Numbered from the stretch's first letter, positions 1-9,900 are shown. The stretch is 51,618 nucleotides of DNA from Thermococcus sp. M39 (GCF_012027325.1 NZ_SNUG01000010.1:1-51618), one strand, 5' to 3'. Notes: generated from the sequence alone by a model not told the origin. Numbers and translations: made by a program.

Positions 1-124
1 AGATGCTTTTCTGTTAAGACCCAGCTGGACTGTTAGTTTGAAGGGCTTGGCTGTCAGGATTTTAGGGGCGATTCTGGCCGTGAATCTGGATAGATTATAC
101 AACTTCACAGGTGGTGGGAACTAG
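1..124 (+). mobile_element. C-terminal tail of a transposase, IS982-like (cut by window edge)
   Basis: One open frame runs from the window edge to TAG at 122-124 and encodes about 40 residues ending in LDRLYNFTGGGN. The tail LLRPSWTVSLKGLAVRIL matches what I remember of the C-terminus of Pyrococcus/Thermococcus IS982-family transposases (from memory, not by search). The catalytic part lies upstream of the window. The element's right end must fall in the roughly 50 bp before the next gene, so an IS abuts the promoter of the radical SAM operon. Confidence 0.6.
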
Positions 125-146
125 GGTTTACTTTTTATTTTTTCTT

Positions 147-184: not shown

Positions 185-1369
185 ATGATAAAACAGAGAA
201 GGTTGAGAATTGATTGGCACTTAACATACAACTGTAATCTAAACTGTCTTCACTGTGGTGTGGTAGAGTATAGGGATAGAGATTTCATTGAAGATCTCTA
301 CCTTAACAATAATAAAAGTAGAATAATAGACACCCTTAGGCAACAAGACTTAGATTTGTTTATAAATCTCCTTGAGAATGATAGTAAATACTTGTTTTCA
401 ATACATTTTTCACCGAATATTGGGGAATCAACTACCCATCCAGATTTTGTAAATATCTGGAATAATGTCTCTTCGGTTGACAGAGTATATATGCTTGCGA
501 TTACAACTAATGGAATGACACTTTATAAATACCTACCTAGGATGAATGTAGAAAAACTTAGAACCTCAATATTTAGTTTAGATGGTGATGAGAATACACA
601 TGACAAAATAAGGGGTAATGGTACTTTTAAAAAGACATATAGATCAATTCAAAAGATCGATGAGCTAAAGCAAGAAGACAGTTCTTTCTATCTCCAGATT
701 AACTTTGTAATTAATAAAATAAATGCTGTTTCACTTAAAGAATTGCCATTGTTACTAAATGAACTGAACAGCAAAAATATTGTAATAAATGTCATACCTA
801 TAGACACAACTTTTGGGAATGCTAGAATAAATCGGAAACTACTTGAGATTCAGATTAGTGAAATAGCAAATAGCATAAATGATGCATATAAACAACTTAA
901 AACAATTAATGCTGAAAGAATAAAAAATGGAAAATCCATCATAAAGATTCGTTTGATGGCATTTACAAGTAAACAAGCACTCCAAATTGTTAGCAAAATT
1001 CAAAATTTAAGTTTCTCTGATTTTATAATTCCTCATAAAGGATGGAAGGAATCATGTTCGGCATATAATCAGAAGGGAATATACTTGGATCCTTACGGAA
1101 ATTTGTTTCCATGTGAATCATTCACTATACCTCATGTACTTGCTAGGTTCTATTCAACGAATGGTTATATGCCTATTCCGAATATTTATGATGGGTTTAG
1201 CTCTATAGAGGAGATAGTACATTCACAGTTTTTTTTAGCTGCAAAAAAGTGGATAAATGAACTTTATGACTTTAGTATTTGCAATTCGTGCCCAATGAAA
1301 AAATCTTGTACAGTATGTCCTATATATAGCTCCATATGGGGGGTCCCACATGACTGTTCAGCATATTAA
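185..1369 (+). CDS. Radical SAM enzyme with SPASM-type C-terminus (peptide maturase candidate)
   Basis: About 394 residues from ATG 185, chosen because GGTGAT ends at 180; an in-frame GTG at 176 overlaps that RBS. The radical SAM cluster motif C-x3-C-x2-C is at residues 17, 21 and 24 (CNLNCLHC), followed by a GGE-like GESTTHPDF segment. The C-terminus has a SPASM-like cysteine set: SCSAYNQKGIYLDPYGNLFPC, then CNSC, CTVC and a last HDC. SPASM proteins usually hold one or two auxiliary Fe-S clusters and often act on ribosomally made peptides. The stop overlaps the next gene, a PqqD-like peptide binder, by 20 bp, which supports peptide modification. The codons are strongly A/T-ending compared with the genes after 3.5 kb, suggesting transfer. 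The substrate is unknown. Confidence 0.85.
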   Translation: MIKQRRLRIDWHLTYNCNLNCLHCGVVEYRDRDFIEDLYLNNNKSRIIDTLRQQDLDLFINLLENDSKYLFSIHFSPNIGESTTHPDFVNIWNNVSSVDRVYMLAITTNGMTLYKYLPRMNVEKLRTSIFSLDGDENTHDKIRGNGTFKKTYRSIQKIDELKQEDSSFYLQINFVINKINAVSLKELPLLLNELNSKNIVINVIPIDTTFGNARINRKLLEIQISEIANSINDAYKQLKTINAERIKNGKSIIKIRLMAFTSKQALQIVSKIQNLSFSDFIIPHKGWKESCSAYNQKGIYLDPYGNLFPCESFTIPHVLARFYSTNGYMPIPNIYDGFSSIEEIVHSQFFLAAKKWINELYDFSICNSCPMKKSCTVCPIYSSIWGVPHDCSAY

Positions 1370-1619
1370 ACTAAATGATGGGTGGATAATTACCGAAGAT
1401 GGATTCATAGTACATTTAGTGAAAGGAGAGGTATATAAGCTTAATCATGTTGGCAAGAAGATATTACAACTGATAATGGAAGGCAAAAGCGAAAATGAGA
1501 TATGCGACATAATTTCAAAAGAATACTCTGTTGATTCTAAACGAGTAAAGAGCGAATTTAGAAAATTCATAACCTCTCTAGAAGATATCGGGATAGTAAA
1601 GGTGGAGAAAGATGAATAA
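1350..1619 (+). CDS. PqqD-like RiPP recognition element protein
   Basis: 89 residues, the usual length of PqqD. The pattern GWIITEDGFIVHLVKGEVYKL, an N-terminal beta-hairpin followed by helices LNHVGKKILQLIMEG and a C-terminal winged-helix-like half, is typical of PqqD/RRE proteins. These bind the leader of a precursor peptide and present it to a radical SAM partner. ATG 1350 overlaps the radical SAM gene by 20 bp and the end overlaps the next start by 8 bp, so the three are probably co-translated. No precursor peptide gene was recognised beside it. Confidence 0.8.
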   Translation: MTVQHIKLNDGWIITEDGFIVHLVKGEVYKLNHVGKKILQLIMEGKSENEICDIISKEYSVDSKRVKSEFRKFITSLEDIGIVKVEKDE

Positions 1620-2718
1620 TAAAAAGTTTATTGGGTTAGATATAGGCGCGTCACATATAAAAGCTACATCCATAGATGAAGACTTGAATGTGAATGTAGA
1701 GATTTATCCAATTTGGAAAAGTTCACTAAAAGGGAACATAAATAGGATTAATCTAATGAATGCAGTAGTAAAGCATATTATAAAGGAGAAAATTAAGAAA
1801 TATGGGAAAGTTGATGTTAATATAGTGACTTCAATTGAGATGGCGTATCCATCGTTCAATTATTTAGATTTCTTTAATAGGCTCTCACAAAACTTGTCAC
1901 AAGTTAATATTTATACGATAAATGAAAAGTTTGTTGTGACTCCTCTCCATGAATTGGAATCTTGGGCGAATTTATCCGTTTCTCACGCTCTTGGATATAT
2001 CGGAGGTAAATTAATAGATACAGGAATACTTATTCATATGAATTCCTCTTCGACTATATTTGTTCCAGTGCTAGTTGGAAATGCTGTATCCCAAGAAGTT
2101 CATTACTCTTCTGGTTTAGGAATGTGGATAGGGGCATTATATACGGATATTCATATGATTAGTAATGAATCTTTCATCTTTGGGAAAAAATCACTTATAT
2201 CCCCTTCTTCAGTTACAATCCTCGATATCCTACTTGAATTAGACGAACTATCATTAAAAAACATTATGTCAGATTATAAATCACCTGTTTCGATCACAGA
2301 AGAGTACAAAAAAGACTCCTTTTATAGATTATTAAAACTCCTTGGATGTTTTCCTACGAGAAAATACAAAAACTCACGCAGTGATAAGGAATACGACCTT
2401 AAAAATCAAGTAAAAATTTCCTCTTTATATATTTACTATAAGTTGTTAAATATTGTTTTTGAAAACGTTATTAAGATACTGTCTGATTTGGATATCCCAT
2501 TAAATAATTTGAAACTTCTTCTTAGCGGTATAGGAAAAGATTTTATTCTCCCCGATGCTTTGTATTTATTCAATGATAAACTCATTGATGTTGAGAGTTA
2601 TATTCCAAAGCCATATTGCATCTTTCTAGAATCTTTTAGTGCCGCTCTTTCCCTCTACGAATACATTACCAACTCAAAAATAAGTTTACATGAAATTAAA
2701 TGGGGGAGCGATAAATGA
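1612..2718 (+). CDS. Divergent ASKHA-fold protein related to MfnF / hydantoinase-like family
   Basis: 368 residues. The start FIGLDIGASHIKA is an ASKHA phosphate-1 motif. The arrangement after it (IYPIWKSS, a central SHALGYIGGKLIDTGILI segment, then LLLSGIGKDF near residue 305) resembles the 'H4MPT-linked C1 transfer pathway' proteins, of which MfnF couples a furan and a tyramine unit in methanofuran synthesis. The second phosphate motif, usually D-x-G-S-T-T-T-D, appears here as IHMNSSSTIF with the Asp missing, so the chemistry may differ. RBS AAAGGTGGAG precedes ATG 1612. Thermococcales do not make methanofuran, so a role in building or priming the product of this cluster is an inference. 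Confidence 0.55.
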   Translation: MNNKKFIGLDIGASHIKATSIDEDLNVNVEIYPIWKSSLKGNINRINLMNAVVKHIIKEKIKKYGKVDVNIVTSIEMAYPSFNYLDFFNRLSQNLSQVNIYTINEKFVVTPLHELESWANLSVSHALGYIGGKLIDTGILIHMNSSSTIFVPVLVGNAVSQEVHYSSGLGMWIGALYTDIHMISNESFIFGKKSLISPSSVTILDILLELDELSLKNIMSDYKSPVSITEEYKKDSFYRLLKLLGCFPTRKYKNSRSDKEYDLKNQVKISSLYIYYKLLNIVFENVIKILSDLDIPLNNLKLLLSGIGKDFILPDALYLFNDKLIDVESYIPKPYCIFLESFSAALSLYEYITNSKISLHEIKWGSDK

Positions 2719-3482
2719 GGCAGATAAAACAGGCATGGATTATAACTAAAACAACGTTTAAGAATTGGATACGCTATCCCGAGAACATCTTTGGAATGTT
2801 TTTATATTTGGGTATCGTGGCTGTGGTTGGTTATGCTTTTTCATTATCTAAAGGAATATTAAGTATCAATGCCGTTCCTTATTATACGGTGGGGCTTTTG
2901 ATATATTCCATACTCAGCCAGCAAAATGGTGTTTATATCCAGTTTGGAATCTGGAAAGAGGATATTTTATCAAAACCAATAAAACCGGATATATTTTTAT
3001 TTGGCACTTTCTTTGGAGGATTGCTGACAACATCCTTGCCATCAATTATGCTCTTTATGTTTGTGTTCATCATTTATAAGAATGCGTTTGTAATAATAAA
3101 CCCTGTAATATTAGGGTTAGCACTAATTTTAGGGATTCTGAGTGCTGTTGGGGTAAGCTATATCTTTGCGTCCCTTGGTTTGAGATTTCGTCCAGAAGGG
3201 ATGGTGGTGACAATAGTGACATTTCTAATTTCAATCCTCTCTGGCATAATGATCCCCATTTATGCTCTTCCCGAAAAAGTGAGAGTACTCTCCTATCTGA
3301 TTCCCTATACCTGGGCGATAGATTTGTTTAGATACTCTCTCTTAGGCACAGAAACAATTCTACCCACTAATGACGAACTCAAGTACTTACTCTTGAGTGT
3401 GCTGGTAACTATAGTTCTCGGAAAGCTCTATCTTCATTACACAATAAATGCAATAAGGAAGAAGAAGGTGATAATAAGATGA
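2715..3482 (+). CDS. ABC-2 type permease
   Basis: 255 residues with about six hydrophobic segments (for example FLYLGIVAVVGYAFSL, TFFGGLLTTSLPSIMLFMFV, ILGILSAVGVSYIFASL and VVTIVTFLISILSGIMI). The conserved C-terminal ALPEKVRVLSYLIPYTWAID region is typical of ABC-2/DrrB-like exporters. ATG 2715 overlaps the preceding stop (ATGA), with a purine-rich RBS just upstream. The next gene is its ATPase, also joined by ATGA overlap. In this operon it most likely exports the matured product or gives self-protection; the substrate is not visible from sequence. Confidence 0.85.
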   Translation: MRQIKQAWIITKTTFKNWIRYPENIFGMFLYLGIVAVVGYAFSLSKGILSINAVPYYTVGLLIYSILSQQNGVYIQFGIWKEDILSKPIKPDIFLFGTFFGGLLTTSLPSIMLFMFVFIIYKNAFVIINPVILGLALILGILSAVGVSYIFASLGLRFRPEGMVVTIVTFLISILSGIMIPIYALPEKVRVLSYLIPYTWAIDLFRYSLLGTETILPTNDELKYLLLSVLVTIVLGKLYLHYTINAIRKKKVIIR

Positions 3483-4336
3483 TAGCCTTTGAGGATGTTC
3501 ACATTTCCTATGGGAAAAATGAGGTCATCAAGGGCATAAGCTTTGAGATTAATGAAGGGGAAATCTTCGGCATCATAGGACATAACGGCGCTGGTAAAAC
3601 GACACTCTTAAGGGCAATGGTTGGGATAATAGCTCCAGATAAAGGAAAAGTACTTGTTAACGACGTTAATCCACTTAAAGAAAAGCCAAAAGTGGCAATG
3701 CTCTTTGAAACTACAAAAGGGCAGAGCTTTCTTCGCTTAACTCCAGTTGAGGACTTGGAGTTTTACTCTGCACTCTATGGCGTTGAGGTTGACAAAGAGA
3801 GAATTCACGAGATACTAAAAATCGTCGGATTATACAGTGCTAAAGATAAGAAGCTTTACACTTTCAGCAGAGGAATGTGGCAGCGACAATTTCTTGCGAG
3901 AGTTTTGCTTCCAGACTTTCCAATAATAGTCTTGGATGAGCCTTGGCTTGGCTTAGATGTTTCGGCACAAAGAGAAACGGTGGAACTTCTCAAAAAGCTC
4001 AAGAAGATGGGAAAAACGATAGTCTTGACGGCTCACGAGATGCCACTCATTGAGAGAGTCTGCGACAGAATAATGCTCATCAACAAAGGAAAGAAAGTCA
4101 TTGAAGGAAGTGTTAAAGAGCTTTTAGATAGACTGGAATGGAAGTATGAAGTTTCCATAGTTGGGGACGTTGAGAGTTTAAATCCAATCAAAAGGGATGG
4201 AAAGCTTATATTCTATGTTAAAGATTTAAAAGAGTTCCTTCAAAAGTTAAATTTTTCAAGAATTGATGAGATTGATGTTAAACCAATTTCACTAGAAGAA
4301 GCTTATTTAAAGCTCTTAGGTGATAAAAATGATTGA
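3479..4336 (+). CDS. ABC transporter ATP-binding protein (partner of ABC-2 permease)
   Basis: 285 residues. Walker A GHNGAGKTT is at residues 34-42, the signature reads FSRGMWQRQ instead of LSGGQ, and Walker B is IIVLDEPWLGLD, followed by the His-loop TAHEM. About 70 further residues after the ATPase core form a C-terminal extension common in DrrA/CcmA-type exporter ATPases. Four-base overlap with the permease gene upstream. Base composition here moves back towards the chromosomal average. Confidence 0.9.
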   Translation: MIAFEDVHISYGKNEVIKGISFEINEGEIFGIIGHNGAGKTTLLRAMVGIIAPDKGKVLVNDVNPLKEKPKVAMLFETTKGQSFLRLTPVEDLEFYSALYGVEVDKERIHEILKIVGLYSAKDKKLYTFSRGMWQRQFLARVLLPDFPIIVLDEPWLGLDVSAQRETVELLKKLKKMGKTIVLTAHEMPLIERVCDRIMLINKGKKVIEGSVKELLDRLEWKYEVSIVGDVESLNPIKRDGKLIFYVKDLKEFLQKLNFSRIDEIDVKPISLEEAYLKLLGDKND

Positions 4337-5009
4337 GGCTCAAAACGTTGAGAAGTTTTATGAGTTTGGTAAGGTCAAAGCTCTTAAGGGTATCAACTTA
4401 ACCTTTGAGGATAGCAAGTTTTACATAGTCGCTGGAGCTTCTGGGAGTGGAAAAACGACTTTGCTTAATATTTTGACGGGCATTGACAAGCCTACAAAGG
4501 GCAGAATTCTTGTGGATGGAAGGGACATCACGGAGATGAAAGAAAAAGATCTCAGACGCTACCGTCTTGAGAACTTCGGCATAATCTTCCAGTTCTTTTA
4601 CTTAGTGCCATATTTAACGGGCTTGGAGAATGTTTTACTGCCGATGAAGTACTCCAAGAAGATCAAAAATCCAGAAGAGAGAGCGTTAAGATTGCTGAAG
4701 CTTGTAAACGCCGAGCATTTGAGGGACAAGACACCGTCTCAAATGAGCGGTGGCGAAATGCAGAGGATTGCGATAGCAAGGGCTTTAGCAAATAAGCCTA
4801 AATACCTCTTTGCAGATGAGCCAACGGCAAACTTGGACTGGGAGAACAAAGTGAGAATCTGGCATTTATTGAGGAAAATAAACGAGGAAGAGGGTGTTAC
4901 AGTTATAGCTTCAACCCACGAGAGGGAGTTTTTTGAGTTTGCGGACGTTCTGATAATCCTTAAGGATGGTGAAGTGCATGAAATTAAGAGCAACTCTAAG
5001 AAAGCTTAA
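4329..5009 (+). CDS. MacB/LolD-type ABC ATPase
   Basis: About 226 residues from ATG 4329, with RBS GGTGAT at 4319-4324; an in-frame GTG at 4320 overlaps the RBS and is not preferred. Walker A is GASGSGKTT, the signature MSGGEMQR, Walker B FADEPTANLD, and the Q-loop region contains FQFFYLVPYLTGLENV, all typical of the LolD/MacB/FtsE class. It works with the FtsX-type permease encoded next, whose start lies 32 bp inside this gene. Such pairs extrude peptides, lipids or lipoproteins by mechanotransmission. Confidence 0.9.
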   Translation: MIEAQNVEKFYEFGKVKALKGINLTFEDSKFYIVAGASGSGKTTLLNILTGIDKPTKGRILVDGRDITEMKEKDLRRYRLENFGIIFQFFYLVPYLTGLENVLLPMKYSKKIKNPEERALRLLKLVNAEHLRDKTPSQMSGGEMQRIAIARALANKPKYLFADEPTANLDWENKVRIWHLLRKINEEEGVTVIASTHEREFFEFADVLIILKDGEVHEIKSNSKKA

Positions 5010-6924
5010 GCATGAAAATAAAAAAGCAGTGATTGTATTTCTGGCATTTCTCTTTGTAAGCCTCGGCTTTAACTTTGCCCTTTCGGGAATTGGTAGCATA
5101 AGCAGGGCTGTTGAGGATTTTGCCAAGCTGGGGAATGTGGAGCTCGAAGTTGAAGGGGTCAGCGTTGAGGACTTAAGTAAATTTGGTGAGGTTATAAACT
5201 ATGTCTACTTCAATGATACAAAAATTGAGTTTAACGGGAAGAAATACAGAGCGGTAGTAGGTTACGGTGAGTTTAAGTCCCTCCACGTAAAAACGCCCGA
5301 AGATGGTGTCGTTGTCTTGGCGTTTCCAGAGGTGAAGAAAGGTGACAAAATTAAAATCAACGGTAAAGAATATGGGGTTAAAGGTTCGTACTACTACTTT
5401 TCGGGCATTCCGTTCGTGCTGGTAAATGAAAAAGGCCAATATCTTTATGTTCTCATGCGTTGCAATGACACGGAAGCTTTGGCAAGTTTCTTAATGAAGA
5501 ATGCGAGGGTTAGGTACTTCTTCATCTATAATGAGGGTGAGATGCCATATATGGACGCTTTAAAGAACATTAAAAAATTTGTCATGAGCTTTTTCTACCT
5601 CCTCCTCGGCGCTTCTCTGGCTGTGATTGTGTTGGTCACGATAACCCATGTCAAAGGGAGCGTTAGAGAAGTCGGAGTTCTAAAAGCGCTCGGCATTCCA
5701 GATTCGTTCATATCTACCCTTTTCGTTGGTGATTTTCTCCTCATTGCTTTGGTTGCTTATTTGATTGGAATTCCACTCGGAATAAATCTCGGCTGTTTCT
5801 ACATAGCCTCAAGGTTCCCAATCCCAACGAGTCCGGACTACATTTATCCGCTGAAGTTCGACATCTTCATTCTGCTCGGCATAACTCTAATTCTCTCACT
5901 TCCCTATCTCTACGTTTCAAGGTTAAAAATCATCGAAGCCCTTCGCTTTACGCCAAGGAAGAGCCATCCGCTTAGGTTCTTTGCGACCTTCTTCATTATC
6001 TTCCTCGCCACTTCCTCTGCATACTTTGGCATTAAGGGTGTTGAGAACCTAATCAGTTTCAACTATTCCTACAACCTCATGGTCTGGGGTGATCCCGCAA
6101 AAATCACCCAACTTCCTGGCGAAAAAGCTGGCTATTTGAGTGGGCAAAAAGTCGATAGAATGACCACAGAAGTTTACTTCTTCGACTACAAAAGCATCTT
6201 CGAGAAAACGCTCATCGCCGGCAGATGGTTTGAGAAGCCAGATGAGGCTGTTATCGAAAAGGGCTTAGCCAAAAAGCTGGACCTAAAGGTCGGTGATACA
6301 ATTAAAGTTCAGATCCTTGGAGAGTGGAGGGAATATAAGATTGTTGGCATAAGCAACATGAACTTCTACGACTTCAAGGCAGTGTTCCTGCCGAAAGTTC
6401 CCTTCGTTCCCGATAAAGTTGCCTTCTTAAACGTGGAGAACCCAGAAGGGCTGAAGGAGAAATATGAGAAGCTCGGCCTGAGTGCTGTCACAATGGAAGA
6501 TTTAAAGAGGCGGATGGAGAGCAATCTAATGATTTTCAAGACCGCAGTCTATGGAGTAATTGGAATAATTTTATTTATAAGCGTCTTTGCTCTCTTTGCT
6601 TTAATTTACCTTGAAATCGAGAGCAACGAGAAGGTTTACGCAACGCTCAAAGCTGTTGGGATTCCAAACTCTCACGTTTGGAAGGAGTTCCTCAAGAATG
6701 CTCTGCCTTCCCTAATTGCCAGTTCACTCCTAGCTCTGCCAATAAGCCTCAAGATTGGAGGATATATTGGTAACTTAGTTTTGCCAGTAGAATTCAGCAT
6801 AAATGATTTAGCCAAAGTGGTACCGCTGTTGTTGGTGCTCTACTTACTCTATGGGATTTTCATAGTTTTGCTGACAAACAGAGCATTGAACAAGCTCGAC
6901 GTTGTTAAAGCATTGAGGAGTTAA
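4978..6924 (+). CDS. FtsX/MacB-like ABC permease with duplicated FtsX domains
   Basis: About 648 residues from ATG 4978; GGTGA at 4968-4972 gives normal spacing, and an in-frame ATG at 4966 is too close to that RBS. Membrane segments: one near the N-terminus (VIVFLAFLFVSLGFNFAL), three around residues 200-320, one starting the second half (FFATFFIIFLATSSAYFGI), and three at the C-terminus. Two external domains lie between them. This is the two-FtsX-domain layout of archaeal lipoprotein/peptide exporters. It is the last gene of the operon and converges on carB. Confidence 0.85.
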   Translation: MKLRATLRKLKHENKKAVIVFLAFLFVSLGFNFALSGIGSISRAVEDFAKLGNVELEVEGVSVEDLSKFGEVINYVYFNDTKIEFNGKKYRAVVGYGEFKSLHVKTPEDGVVVLAFPEVKKGDKIKINGKEYGVKGSYYYFSGIPFVLVNEKGQYLYVLMRCNDTEALASFLMKNARVRYFFIYNEGEMPYMDALKNIKKFVMSFFYLLLGASLAVIVLVTITHVKGSVREVGVLKALGIPDSFISTLFVGDFLLIALVAYLIGIPLGINLGCFYIASRFPIPTSPDYIYPLKFDIFILLGITLILSLPYLYVSRLKIIEALRFTPRKSHPLRFFATFFIIFLATSSAYFGIKGVENLISFNYSYNLMVWGDPAKITQLPGEKAGYLSGQKVDRMTTEVYFFDYKSIFEKTLIAGRWFEKPDEAVIEKGLAKKLDLKVGDTIKVQILGEWREYKIVGISNMNFYDFKAVFLPKVPFVPDKVAFLNVENPEGLKEKYEKLGLSAVTMEDLKRRMESNLMIFKTAVYGVIGIILFISVFALFALIYLEIESNEKVYATLKAVGIPNSHVWKEFLKNALPSLIASSLLALPISLKIGGYIGNLVLPVEFSINDLAKVVPLLLVLYLLYGIFIVLLTNRALNKLDVVKALRS

Positions 6925-6987: not shown

Positions 6988-9900
6988 TTAGAGGTTGGGA
7001 CTTTTGATAGGCTCCTTTAAGAAAGAAGTATTTACTAGGACTTTTATCCCATAATACTCGCTTAGCTCTTTAATTTCAAACTCGTTCTCTTTGGCCCAAG
7101 CAAGAGCTTTTGAAAGCTCATAAGCCAAGTTTGCATCTAAAACAATTGGGACGTTTAAATCAACAGCAGTTCTCCTTACCTTGTAATCTCTGTCTTTTGC
7201 ATAGTCAGAGGTCATCACCAAGTCAATCTTACTGTTTTTCATTAACGCTACTGCCTTTTCTTTGCTTATGGGGTTTCCGATGCTTAGAGCATCTTCAAGC
7301 GTAAATACTTCGTAGCCGAGAGATTCAAGAATCTTAGCTGTTTCGCTTAGCTTATCTTTTTCTCTTCCGTAACCATAAATCAATACACTCTTTTCGGGCA
7401 TTCTGTTCGGCTTCACTGAGAGCCAGCTCTTAAGCAGTGCATCCTCGAATTCGCTACCGAGAGCGGCAACTTCTCCCGTGGAGCGCATTTCCGGGCCTAA
7501 GAATGGATAAGCGTTTTGAAGCTGAGACCACGAGAACTGTGGACTTTTCACAGCGAAAGCCTTTGGAGGTATCTCATAGTATTTGTATTCCTCACCAATT
7601 GAGAGCTTTCCATCAAATACTGCCTGAGCCGCTAGCTCCATTAAATTTACGCCTCTTGCCTTGCTTGAGAATGGCATTGATCTGCTCGTTCTTAAGTTTA
7701 GCTCAAGGACATAGACGTCATCGTTTACCAAGAACTGTATGTTGAACGGCCCTCTAATTCCTAAAGCCAAAGCAAGCTCTAAAGCGATTTCCTGCATCTT
7801 TTTAACTTGCTTGGATTTTAGATAGCGGTAAGGTGTCACCATCGTAGCGTCTCCACTGTGAACACCAGCTTTTTCTACGTGCTCCAGAGTAACGCCGACA
7901 ACCCTCCTTCCATCTGACACAGCATCTATCTCAGCTTCCATAGCATCTAAGAATTTTGAAACCACTACTGGGTGCTCCGGAGATACCTTTGCCGCTAAGG
8001 AGAGGTATTCTCTCAGCTCTTTCTCATTGTAGGCGACTTTCATTGCAGTTCCGCTCAAAACGTAGCTTGGCCTTATCATAACCGGATACCCAACTTCCTC
8101 AGCGAACTTTAAAACCTCTCTAAGGCTTTTCGCAGCTGTCCAGGGAGGCTGCTTTATTCCCAAATCTTCAAGGAGTTTGGAGAACTTCACCCTGTTTTCA
8201 GCTACATCAACACTCGTTCCTCTCGTTCCCAAAAGCCTAACTCCATTCTGCTCAAGCTTTTTAGCCAAGGAATTAGCCAACTGTCCGCCAGCAAAGGCAA
8301 TGACACCTTCAGGCTTCTCAAACTTGTAGATGTCCAAAACTCTCTCAAGGGTTATCTCCTCGAAATAGAGCTTATCATTAATGTCCCAGTCTGTTGAAAC
8401 TGTTTCGGGGTTATAATTAAGCACGATAACCTCATAGCCCCTCTTCTTTGCTGAATTTGCGAAATTCACAACTGCCCAATCAAACTCAACGCTAACACCT
8501 ATCCTAAAGACTCCGGCACCCAAAACCAAAACTTTCGGATTTTCCGTGTGAGGGATGTCGTTTTCTTGAGCATCATAGGTCATGTACAGATAATTTGTCT
8601 TTGCAGGGAATTCTCCAGCCAGAGTGTCAATCTGCTTCACGAATATTTTTGGTTTCTTCTTGGATTCCTTTAACCTCTTACCCACTAACCTCTCTATTTG
8701 CTTATCGCTGAAGCCGAGCTTCTTCGCTTCACTTATAAGCTCTTCAGTTGGGTTCTTCTTCAGTTCTTCCGCCACTCTAACAAGGTCTTCGATTATATAG
8801 AGATAAAAGCGGTCTATTCCAGTGATTTCATAAATCTCATCAACACTTGCCCCAAGCTTTAATGCTTTAGCTATGTGCATTGGCATATAAGGTTCATAGT
8901 TCCTTATTCTCTTCATGACCTCTTCCAAGGGCTCATCCCTTTCGTAATATTCACCAATCAGTTCATCCCCGATATCAACCATTCTAATTGCCTTTTGGAA
9001 TGCCTCATGCAAGTTTCGTCCTATTGCCATAACTTCTCCAATGCTCTTCATCTCTGAATTTATCCTCTTGTTTGCGTTCTCAAACTTCTCTAAGTCCCAT
9101 CTCGGGACTTTAACGACAACATAGTCTAGGCTTGGCTCAAAAGCCGCTGTGGTAACTCCAGTTACACCATTCAAGAGCTCATCTAAGGTATAGCCCAAAG
9201 CAAGCTTTGCCGCTATGTAGGCTAAAGGATAACCCGTTACCTTGCTCGCTAACGCAGATGAGCGGCTCATCCTTGGATTTGTCTCAATAACATAGAATTC
9301 CTCTGATTTTGGATTTAAGGCTAGCTGAACATTACACTCGCCAACTAAACCTATTGCTTCAGCGACCTTTATTGCCGCGCTCCTTAGGATTTGATACTCC
9401 CTATTGGTGAGAGTTTGAGAAGGAGCAACAACTATGGAATCTCCAGTATGAACTCCCATCGGGTCAAAGTTCTCTAAGCATGCAACGGCAACAGCATTTC
9501 CGTTTTTATCCCTCACAACTTCAAACTCTATCTCCTTCCAATGATAGAGATATTTCTCGACCAAAACCTCGCCGATCTCACTCTGAGCGAAAGCCCTAAT
9601 TATATAGTTTTCAAACTCTTCCTTATTCCACGCAACGAAAGAACCTCTACCGCCGAGGTTGAAGCTCACCCTAACGATGACGGGGAAGCCAATCTTCTCC
9701 GCTATTTCAATTGCTTCTTCAACGCTTTTAGCCGCTCCGCTTGGTGGTATTGGGAGACCGGCTTTTATCATTGTCTCTCTAAACTTTTCTCTATCCAGGG
9801 CTTTCTTTATGCCCTCTATGGGTGTGCCAAGGACTTTAACACCGTATTTATCCAAAATTCCGCTTTCATGTAATGCCACACCCAAAGATAAGGCACTTTG

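Follow-up and report, generated by a model that had tools for sequence, protein, structure and literature searches.

A gene cassette shared by heat-loving archaea, predicted to encode a small, modified and exported peptide

Introduction

RiPP gene clusters with SPASM-type radical SAM (rSAM) maturases, such as those of sactipeptides (SkfB and CteB products) and ranthipeptides, combine a maturase of characteristic cysteine plan with a PqqD-type RiPP recognition element (RRE), a small precursor gene directly upstream and an ABC exporter. Lasso peptide and LPP clusters with a stand-alone RRE (B1 type) pair a PqqD-like RRE with the leader YxxPx[L/V/I], and the published RRE-binding leader motif for stand-alone RREs is [Y/W]xxPx[L/V/I/F/A] (PMC13381572). 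The ASKHA-fold family MfnF/TIGR03123 belongs to methanofuran and methylofuran synthesis, where MfnF is presumed to couple a furan diphosphate with a Glu-Tyr/tyramine dipeptide (PMC8141765). MacB/LolCDE-type exporters join an ATPase to an FtsX permease with a MacB core domain.

Here, we report a cassette, first noticed in Thermococcus sp. M39, that has features of each of these systems. It shares the cysteine plan, RRE, upstream precursor and ABC exporter of the SPASM clusters, but it is archaeal, falls below every NCBIfam subclass cut-off, has precursors unmatched in NCBIfam, and carries an additional ASKHA protein and two exporters, with no leader peptidase encoded in the cluster. The leader type and stand-alone RRE are those of lasso and LPP clusters, but the maturase is an rSAM enzyme, and neither an asparagine-synthetase-like cyclase nor a B2 protease is present among the seven genes of the original locus. 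The ASKHA protein has the fold of MfnF/TIGR03123 and full-length remote homology to it, but its phosphate-2 motif is changed, it has no methanofuran context, and it adjoins a peptide maturase. The MacB-like pair has no adaptor or outer-membrane partner, and its permease contains two FtsX stretches. We conclude that this eight-gene cassette, present in heat-loving archaea of two distant lineages, almost certainly yields a small, chemically modified, exported peptide.

Results and Discussion

The window, that is, the whole stretch of DNA analysed (51,618 nucleotides), is contig C10 of an assembly (G000) of 2.28 Mb that is 99% complete. Seven genes, all on the + strand, occupy positions 185-6924 in the order rSAM-PqqD-ASKHA-ABC-2 permease-ABC-2 ATPase-MacB ATPase-FtsX. 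Every neighbouring pair overlaps, by 20, 8, 4, 4, 8-17 and 32 bp in order (ranges vary with the choice of start codon), in agreement with the overlaps of 4-32 bp given in an earlier, sequence-only reading, which had also described the first three genes as AT-rich (31-33% G+C, versus 42-43% for MacB/FtsX). The features are as follows.

1..128, + strand: right end of an IS element (C-terminus of a transposase-like ORF plus terminal inverted repeat)
185..1369, + strand: candidate radical SAM/SPASM peptide maturase (Pfam PF04055, invariant cysteines, fold search)
1350..1619, + strand: stand-alone PqqD-type RRE (PF05402)
1612..2718, + strand: ASKHA-fold protein, remote MfnF relative (NCBIfam, PDB profile, alignment, AlphaFold model)
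2715..3482, + strand: ABC-2 permease, variable between cassettes (PF01061)
3479..4336, + strand: ABC-2 exporter ATPase (PF00005)
4320..5009, + strand: MacB/LolD-type ATPase (PF00005)
4966..6924, + strand: FtsX/MacB-type permease (PF02687 in two stretches, PF12704)

The proposed SPASM-type rSAM enzyme was borne out by a Radical_SAM Pfam score of 35.7 bits (cut-off, 29.5) and by its cysteine plan (C17-x3-C21-x2-C24; C291-x13-G305-x4-C310; C366-x2-C369-x5-C375-x2-C378). The CxxxCxxC and SPASM cysteines are invariant across four homologues, except that the last SPASM Cys is absent in locus L006, and the window-type spacing, CX2CX5CX2C, departs from the usual SPASM pattern, CX2CX5CX3C. Fold searches matched BlsE, SkfB, CteB-type and anSME structures, from which only the general class is safe at the model's pLDDT of 73. 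No named subclass could be assigned, as every NCBIfam match fell far below its equivalog cut-off (best, 59.5 versus 380); weak matches included the tungsten-oxidoreductase maturase and mycofactocin models. The predicted PqqD-like leader binder scored 47.3 bits against PF05402 (cut-off, 23.4), and its best NCBIfam neighbour, below cut-off, is the lasso PqqD family chaperone (closest models, NF033530 and NF033536). The profile searches suggested in the earlier reading gave a divided outcome, with PqqD above its Pfam cut-off and the MfnF/TIGR03123 and SPASM subclass cut-offs missed. PADLOC pVip matches (E, 1e-10 to 3e-17) reflect the shared radical SAM core, and viperin-type defence, contradicted by the SPASM extension and by PqqD, was rejected.

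Both exporters named in that reading scored above their Pfam cut-offs: ABC2_membrane at 46.8 (cut-off, 26.9) for the ABC-2 permease, ABC_tran at 93.7 and 115.1 (cut-off, 25) for the ABC-2 and MacB-type ATPases, and FtsX at 67.3 (cut-off, 25.5) and MacB_PCD at 29.8 (cut-off, 27) for the last permease. The second system thus comprises an FtsX permease with a MacB core domain and a LolD-like ATPase, LolD being the closest NCBIfam model of that ATPase, under its cut-off. Pairs related to MacB/FtsX but unaccompanied by the cassette are present in about ten other genomes of the family, mostly at another conserved site, so the pair is not exclusive to the peptide pathway. At L133-L142 (ten family genomes), this mostly conserved site lies before a YlqF-like GTPase gene, with no peptide cassette.

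The ASKHA gene was found in 5 of 115 genomes of the phylum (the window genome and four from one other genus) and in 2 of 400 Thermoplasmata genomes (contig L018 and genome G273); L018 was recovered when the genome collection was scanned with an alignment, the single-sequence scan having given no match. An rSAM profile search of the phylum genomes (E ≤ 1e-20) placed this enzyme type only in G000, G039 and G085, with two distant paralogues in G021. The window gene order is identical in L006 (genome G085), L018 and L087 (G273), and in L008 (G039) the cassette order is kept with the ABC-2 pair absent from its position. Both Thermoplasmata loci have MazG-like, KaiC-like and acetyltransferase-like genes as common upstream neighbours (identified by eye), and a translation initiation factor gene lies near the G273 cluster; these loci are therefore chromosomal, not Thermococcus contamination. 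The earlier reading had staked its case on the rSAM, PqqD and ASKHA genes occurring together elsewhere; they do so in another class of archaea, where the exporters are the same, conservation here resting on seven loci, several of them from draft metagenome bins. The cassette-free MacB/FtsX pairs could be taken to favour a chance gathering of unrelated housekeeping genes, but the same order in two archaeal classes, the overlapping frames and a conserved upstream precursor all oppose it; the Thermoplasmata loci refute it, and we give it practically no credence. Two frame disruptions, each either real decay or error, were seen: the FtsX gene of G085 is internally deleted and its frame is broken (L006, 10782-12360), and the rSAM gene of G273 has a frame shift beside a short T run (L087, 7010-7044).

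The sequence-only reading had advised looking for a conserved small ORF in relatives, and one or two ORFs of 28-36 codons were indeed found directly before the rSAM gene in each of the four relatives whose upstream region is intact, every ORF preceded by an SD-like sequence.

L008 (G039), 7316-7426 and 7519-7629: candidate precursors MEKPEYELPKVRVLSEEGVQPEGCFGGSISDPCCND and MEKSKYEPPKVISLSEDDCEPTGCPGGCINAQCCFD
L006 (G085), 5849-5935: candidate precursor MEYEAPKIEAVENGVEPYGMDIHIHCPS
L018, 3224-3319: candidate precursor MVYEAPSIKKVAGGPAPTSPAGAVICCFCTK
L087 (G273), 5893-5991: candidate precursor MAYEAPSLKKASGGPAPASPTGVAVCCICNAE

Their common leader, M..YExPx[IVL], is of the expected RRE-binding type, and their cores are variable and mostly Cys-rich, with 1 to 5 Cys (a single one in G085); in the G039 peptides, Tyr occurs only in the leader. 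When 271 kb was scanned on both strands for ORFs of 24-50 codons, only these five among 2244 small ORFs carried the leader motif. In shuffled DNA, 1 of 11449 ORFs did so, a rate to be read as a guide because the shuffles keep base composition only. None of the precursors has any NCBIfam match. A small precursor with a conserved leader and variable core is thus present at L006, L008, L018 and L087 and absent from the window locus.

These precursors bear on what the pathway makes, which the earlier reading had left as a modified peptide or a peptide-derived cofactor. Synteny and the precursors support the peptide; the cofactor part found no support. A redox cofactor resembling PQQ or mycofactocin would also be made by PqqD and a SPASM enzyme, and the rSAM protein has the weak tungsten-oxidoreductase maturase and mycofactocin matches given above. 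However, the gene string contains two exporters and no dehydrogenase partner, the distribution is patchy (5/115 and 2/400), and the cores differ between alleles, whereas a cofactor would be conserved; we consider a cofactor product very unlikely.

At the window locus, the precursor is missing, its place taken by an IS element and by a neighbour gene that is truncated. Window positions 1-128 form a contig edge inside the IS element, with the C-terminal 40 codons of a transposase-like ORF at 2-124 and a terminal inverted repeat, TGGGAACTAGGGT, at about 115-128; the matching inverted repeat, ACCCTAGTTCCCA, lies at positions 115-128 of contig C5 of the same genome. A FAD-oxidoreductase-like gene, the left cluster neighbour in L006 and L008, stands at the start of C5, cut by the IS end (C5, 1-128). 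The four bases TTAC border the IS on both outer flanks (window contig and C5), and neither of the linked contigs contains the IS interior, which explains the contig break. The most economical explanation is that a single IS inserted into a locus that had already lost the oxidoreductase start and the precursor. A search for a second IS copy or a bridging contig with a precursor found no other inverted-repeat copy resembling an IS end, and neither the window nor the end of the linked contig contained a precursor. Scans of the rest of the genome, by contig ends and by pattern (conserved upstream DNA, YExP codons and SD-ATG-YExP), gave only matches at chance level, within larger genes or lacking a gene-like context. 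The window enzymes are intact, which may mean that the precursor disappeared recently or that there is one lacking the motif; with no precursor at its locus, the window copy may be inactive.

Comparison of alleles showed a sharp boundary. In the left flank, in the stretch ahead of the precursor and in its ribosome-binding site, L006 and L008 share 94-100% identity; from the precursor start codon onward they share 34-44%, a fall from about 98% to about 40%. Between divergent Thermococcaceae alleles, the rSAM and ASKHA proteins have about 44-47% identity, little above the 36-41% seen with Thermoplasmata, versus 83-91% within the family for the MacB ATPase. The ABC-2 permease of the window has 45% identity to that of L006, its ATPase 93%, and an identity step at about 3.43-3.48 kb puts the right boundary of the divergent cassette just before the ABC-2 ATPase, at about 3425-3475. 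Between L007 (genome G064) and L008, the FtsX permease is 55% and its ATPase 91% identical. The permeases therefore vary along with the cargo enzymes while the ATPases stay constant, the pattern expected of an exchangeable, product-specific module, although its selective cause is our inference. The drop falls exactly at the precursor ATG, so the peptide, together with the enzymes and a single permease, behaves like an exchangeable cassette, and an exchange so sharply placed suggests selection for diversity. The FtsX gene of L007 (11194-13146) is itself a mosaic, mostly about 55% identical to that of G039 and about 80% over the last 300-400 bases.

The ASKHA protein has no Pfam match. The window member matches TIGR03123 at E 6.5e-5 (22.3 bits; cut-off, 244.1), and 6 of 7 family members match TIGR03123 (best, 2e-10) and NF040623 MfnF (best, 1e-9). 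A PDB profile search reached E 2e-8 with 3c0b/3cet, which is a conserved protein of archaea, and 3cet was also the top fold match of the AlphaFold model (pLDDT, 78; E, 3e-13; TM, 0.63/0.70). The phosphate-2 stretch ILVDMGSTTTDII of 3c0b aligns to ilihmnsastlfv, DMGSTTTD having become HMNSxSTxF/I; the DxGST motif of MfnF is absent, and H142-M-N-S-x-S-T is invariant in all members. The phosphate-1 DIGxxHxK and adenosine SGxG motifs are retained, and the polar motifs HMNSxST, HYSSG, NQ and SGxG are invariant family-wide. The description of an MfnF-like protein with a changed phosphate motif is thus upheld. In line with the earlier reading, no paper in the literature searched describes a RiPP cluster with an MfnF-like or ASKHA protein. 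ASKHA relatives were absent from plasmid, phage and viral collections. A reductive activator of the HgdC/BcrA type was also considered and rejected, the ASKHA alignment having no invariant Cys for a shared [4Fe-4S] cluster.

The remote homology and the 3cet fold match might suggest that the ASKHA protein condenses as MfnF does, forming an ether bond between a peptide side chain and a small molecule activated as a diphosphate. Against this, the protein lies far below the TIGR03123 cut-off, the cluster has no furan-diphosphate genes, and a TIGR03123 search of 13 genomes of relatives found no member (control methanogens were positive). We consider such a condensation very unlikely. With no Tyr beyond the leader in the G039 peptides and a different active-site motif, ether chemistry of this type on Tyr is improbable.

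A role other than tailoring, in which the peptide pathway is real and the ASKHA protein acts in immunity, export coupling or regulation as a pseudo-kinase binding nucleotide and/or peptide, deserves more weight, though we consider it less likely than not. Phosphate-2 Asp and Gly are replaced in every member. Moreover, G064 (L007) has the first leader codons fused to a PqqD remnant, the precursor core, the rSAM gene and most of PqqD being deleted, and keeps ASKHA and MacB/FtsX intact; its ASKHA gene is 94% identical to that of G039 (one allele), with omega 0.22. However, the ASKHA gene, which overlaps PqqD, is part of the divergent rSAM/PqqD block and not of the conserved MacB block, its invariant motifs resemble an active site, and the G064 loss may be recent, in which case retention says little. 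That retention fits an ASKHA role in immunity or export as well as it fits simple decay, and G064 is possibly an immune non-producer. The deletion scar joining leader to PqqD remnant lies at L007 9230-9371.

We regard the locus as very probably a RiPP pathway of thermophilic and hyperthermophilic archaea in which precursor, three enzymes and permease are exchanged together. A precursor of about 30 residues would be translated from the gene directly upstream (seen in relatives, lost in the window), and PqqD, judging by the motif, would bind its YExPx[IVL] leader and present the core to the rSAM/SPASM enzyme. This enzyme most likely makes at least one cross-link, probably a Cys thioether; a uniform thioether model is weakened because the cores vary strongly and the G085 core has a single Cys. 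The ASKHA protein, with most of its nucleotide site kept, may act on the peptide in a second, nucleotide-dependent step or serve as a dedicated partner, the least certain step of the scheme. The ABC-2 and MacB/FtsX systems would export the product and/or protect the cell. The identity steps show that precursor, three enzymes and ABC-2 permease are swapped as divergent alleles between conserved flanks, a pattern that would suit a peptide serving competition or the recognition of strains.

The cassette represents a real and conserved RiPP family of archaea, unusual for its ASKHA partner and apparently unreported in the literature searched. We suggest only tentatively that it is a new RiPP class, with a re-made ASKHA phosphate site, an unseen nucleotide-dependent modification and an allele-swapping locus for competition or recognition. 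Archaeal peptide natural products are poorly known, and a complete candidate pathway with precursors is now defined. Cross-linked peptides of heat-loving archaea would need unusual stability, and the ASKHA partner points toward untried peptide chemistry. As the exchange suggests selection for diversity, the locus could open competition between archaeal strains to testing. Another, distinct candidate RiPP cluster, with two tandem radical SAM genes, was seen at L143 (G021, contig C3; 7712-10998); a small Cys-rich ORF, MINVPMVFEGPALLANTMVPLGRGTNVCCYNDTDGDYYCCIKTEVL, lies upstream of them, preceded by ABC transporter genes.
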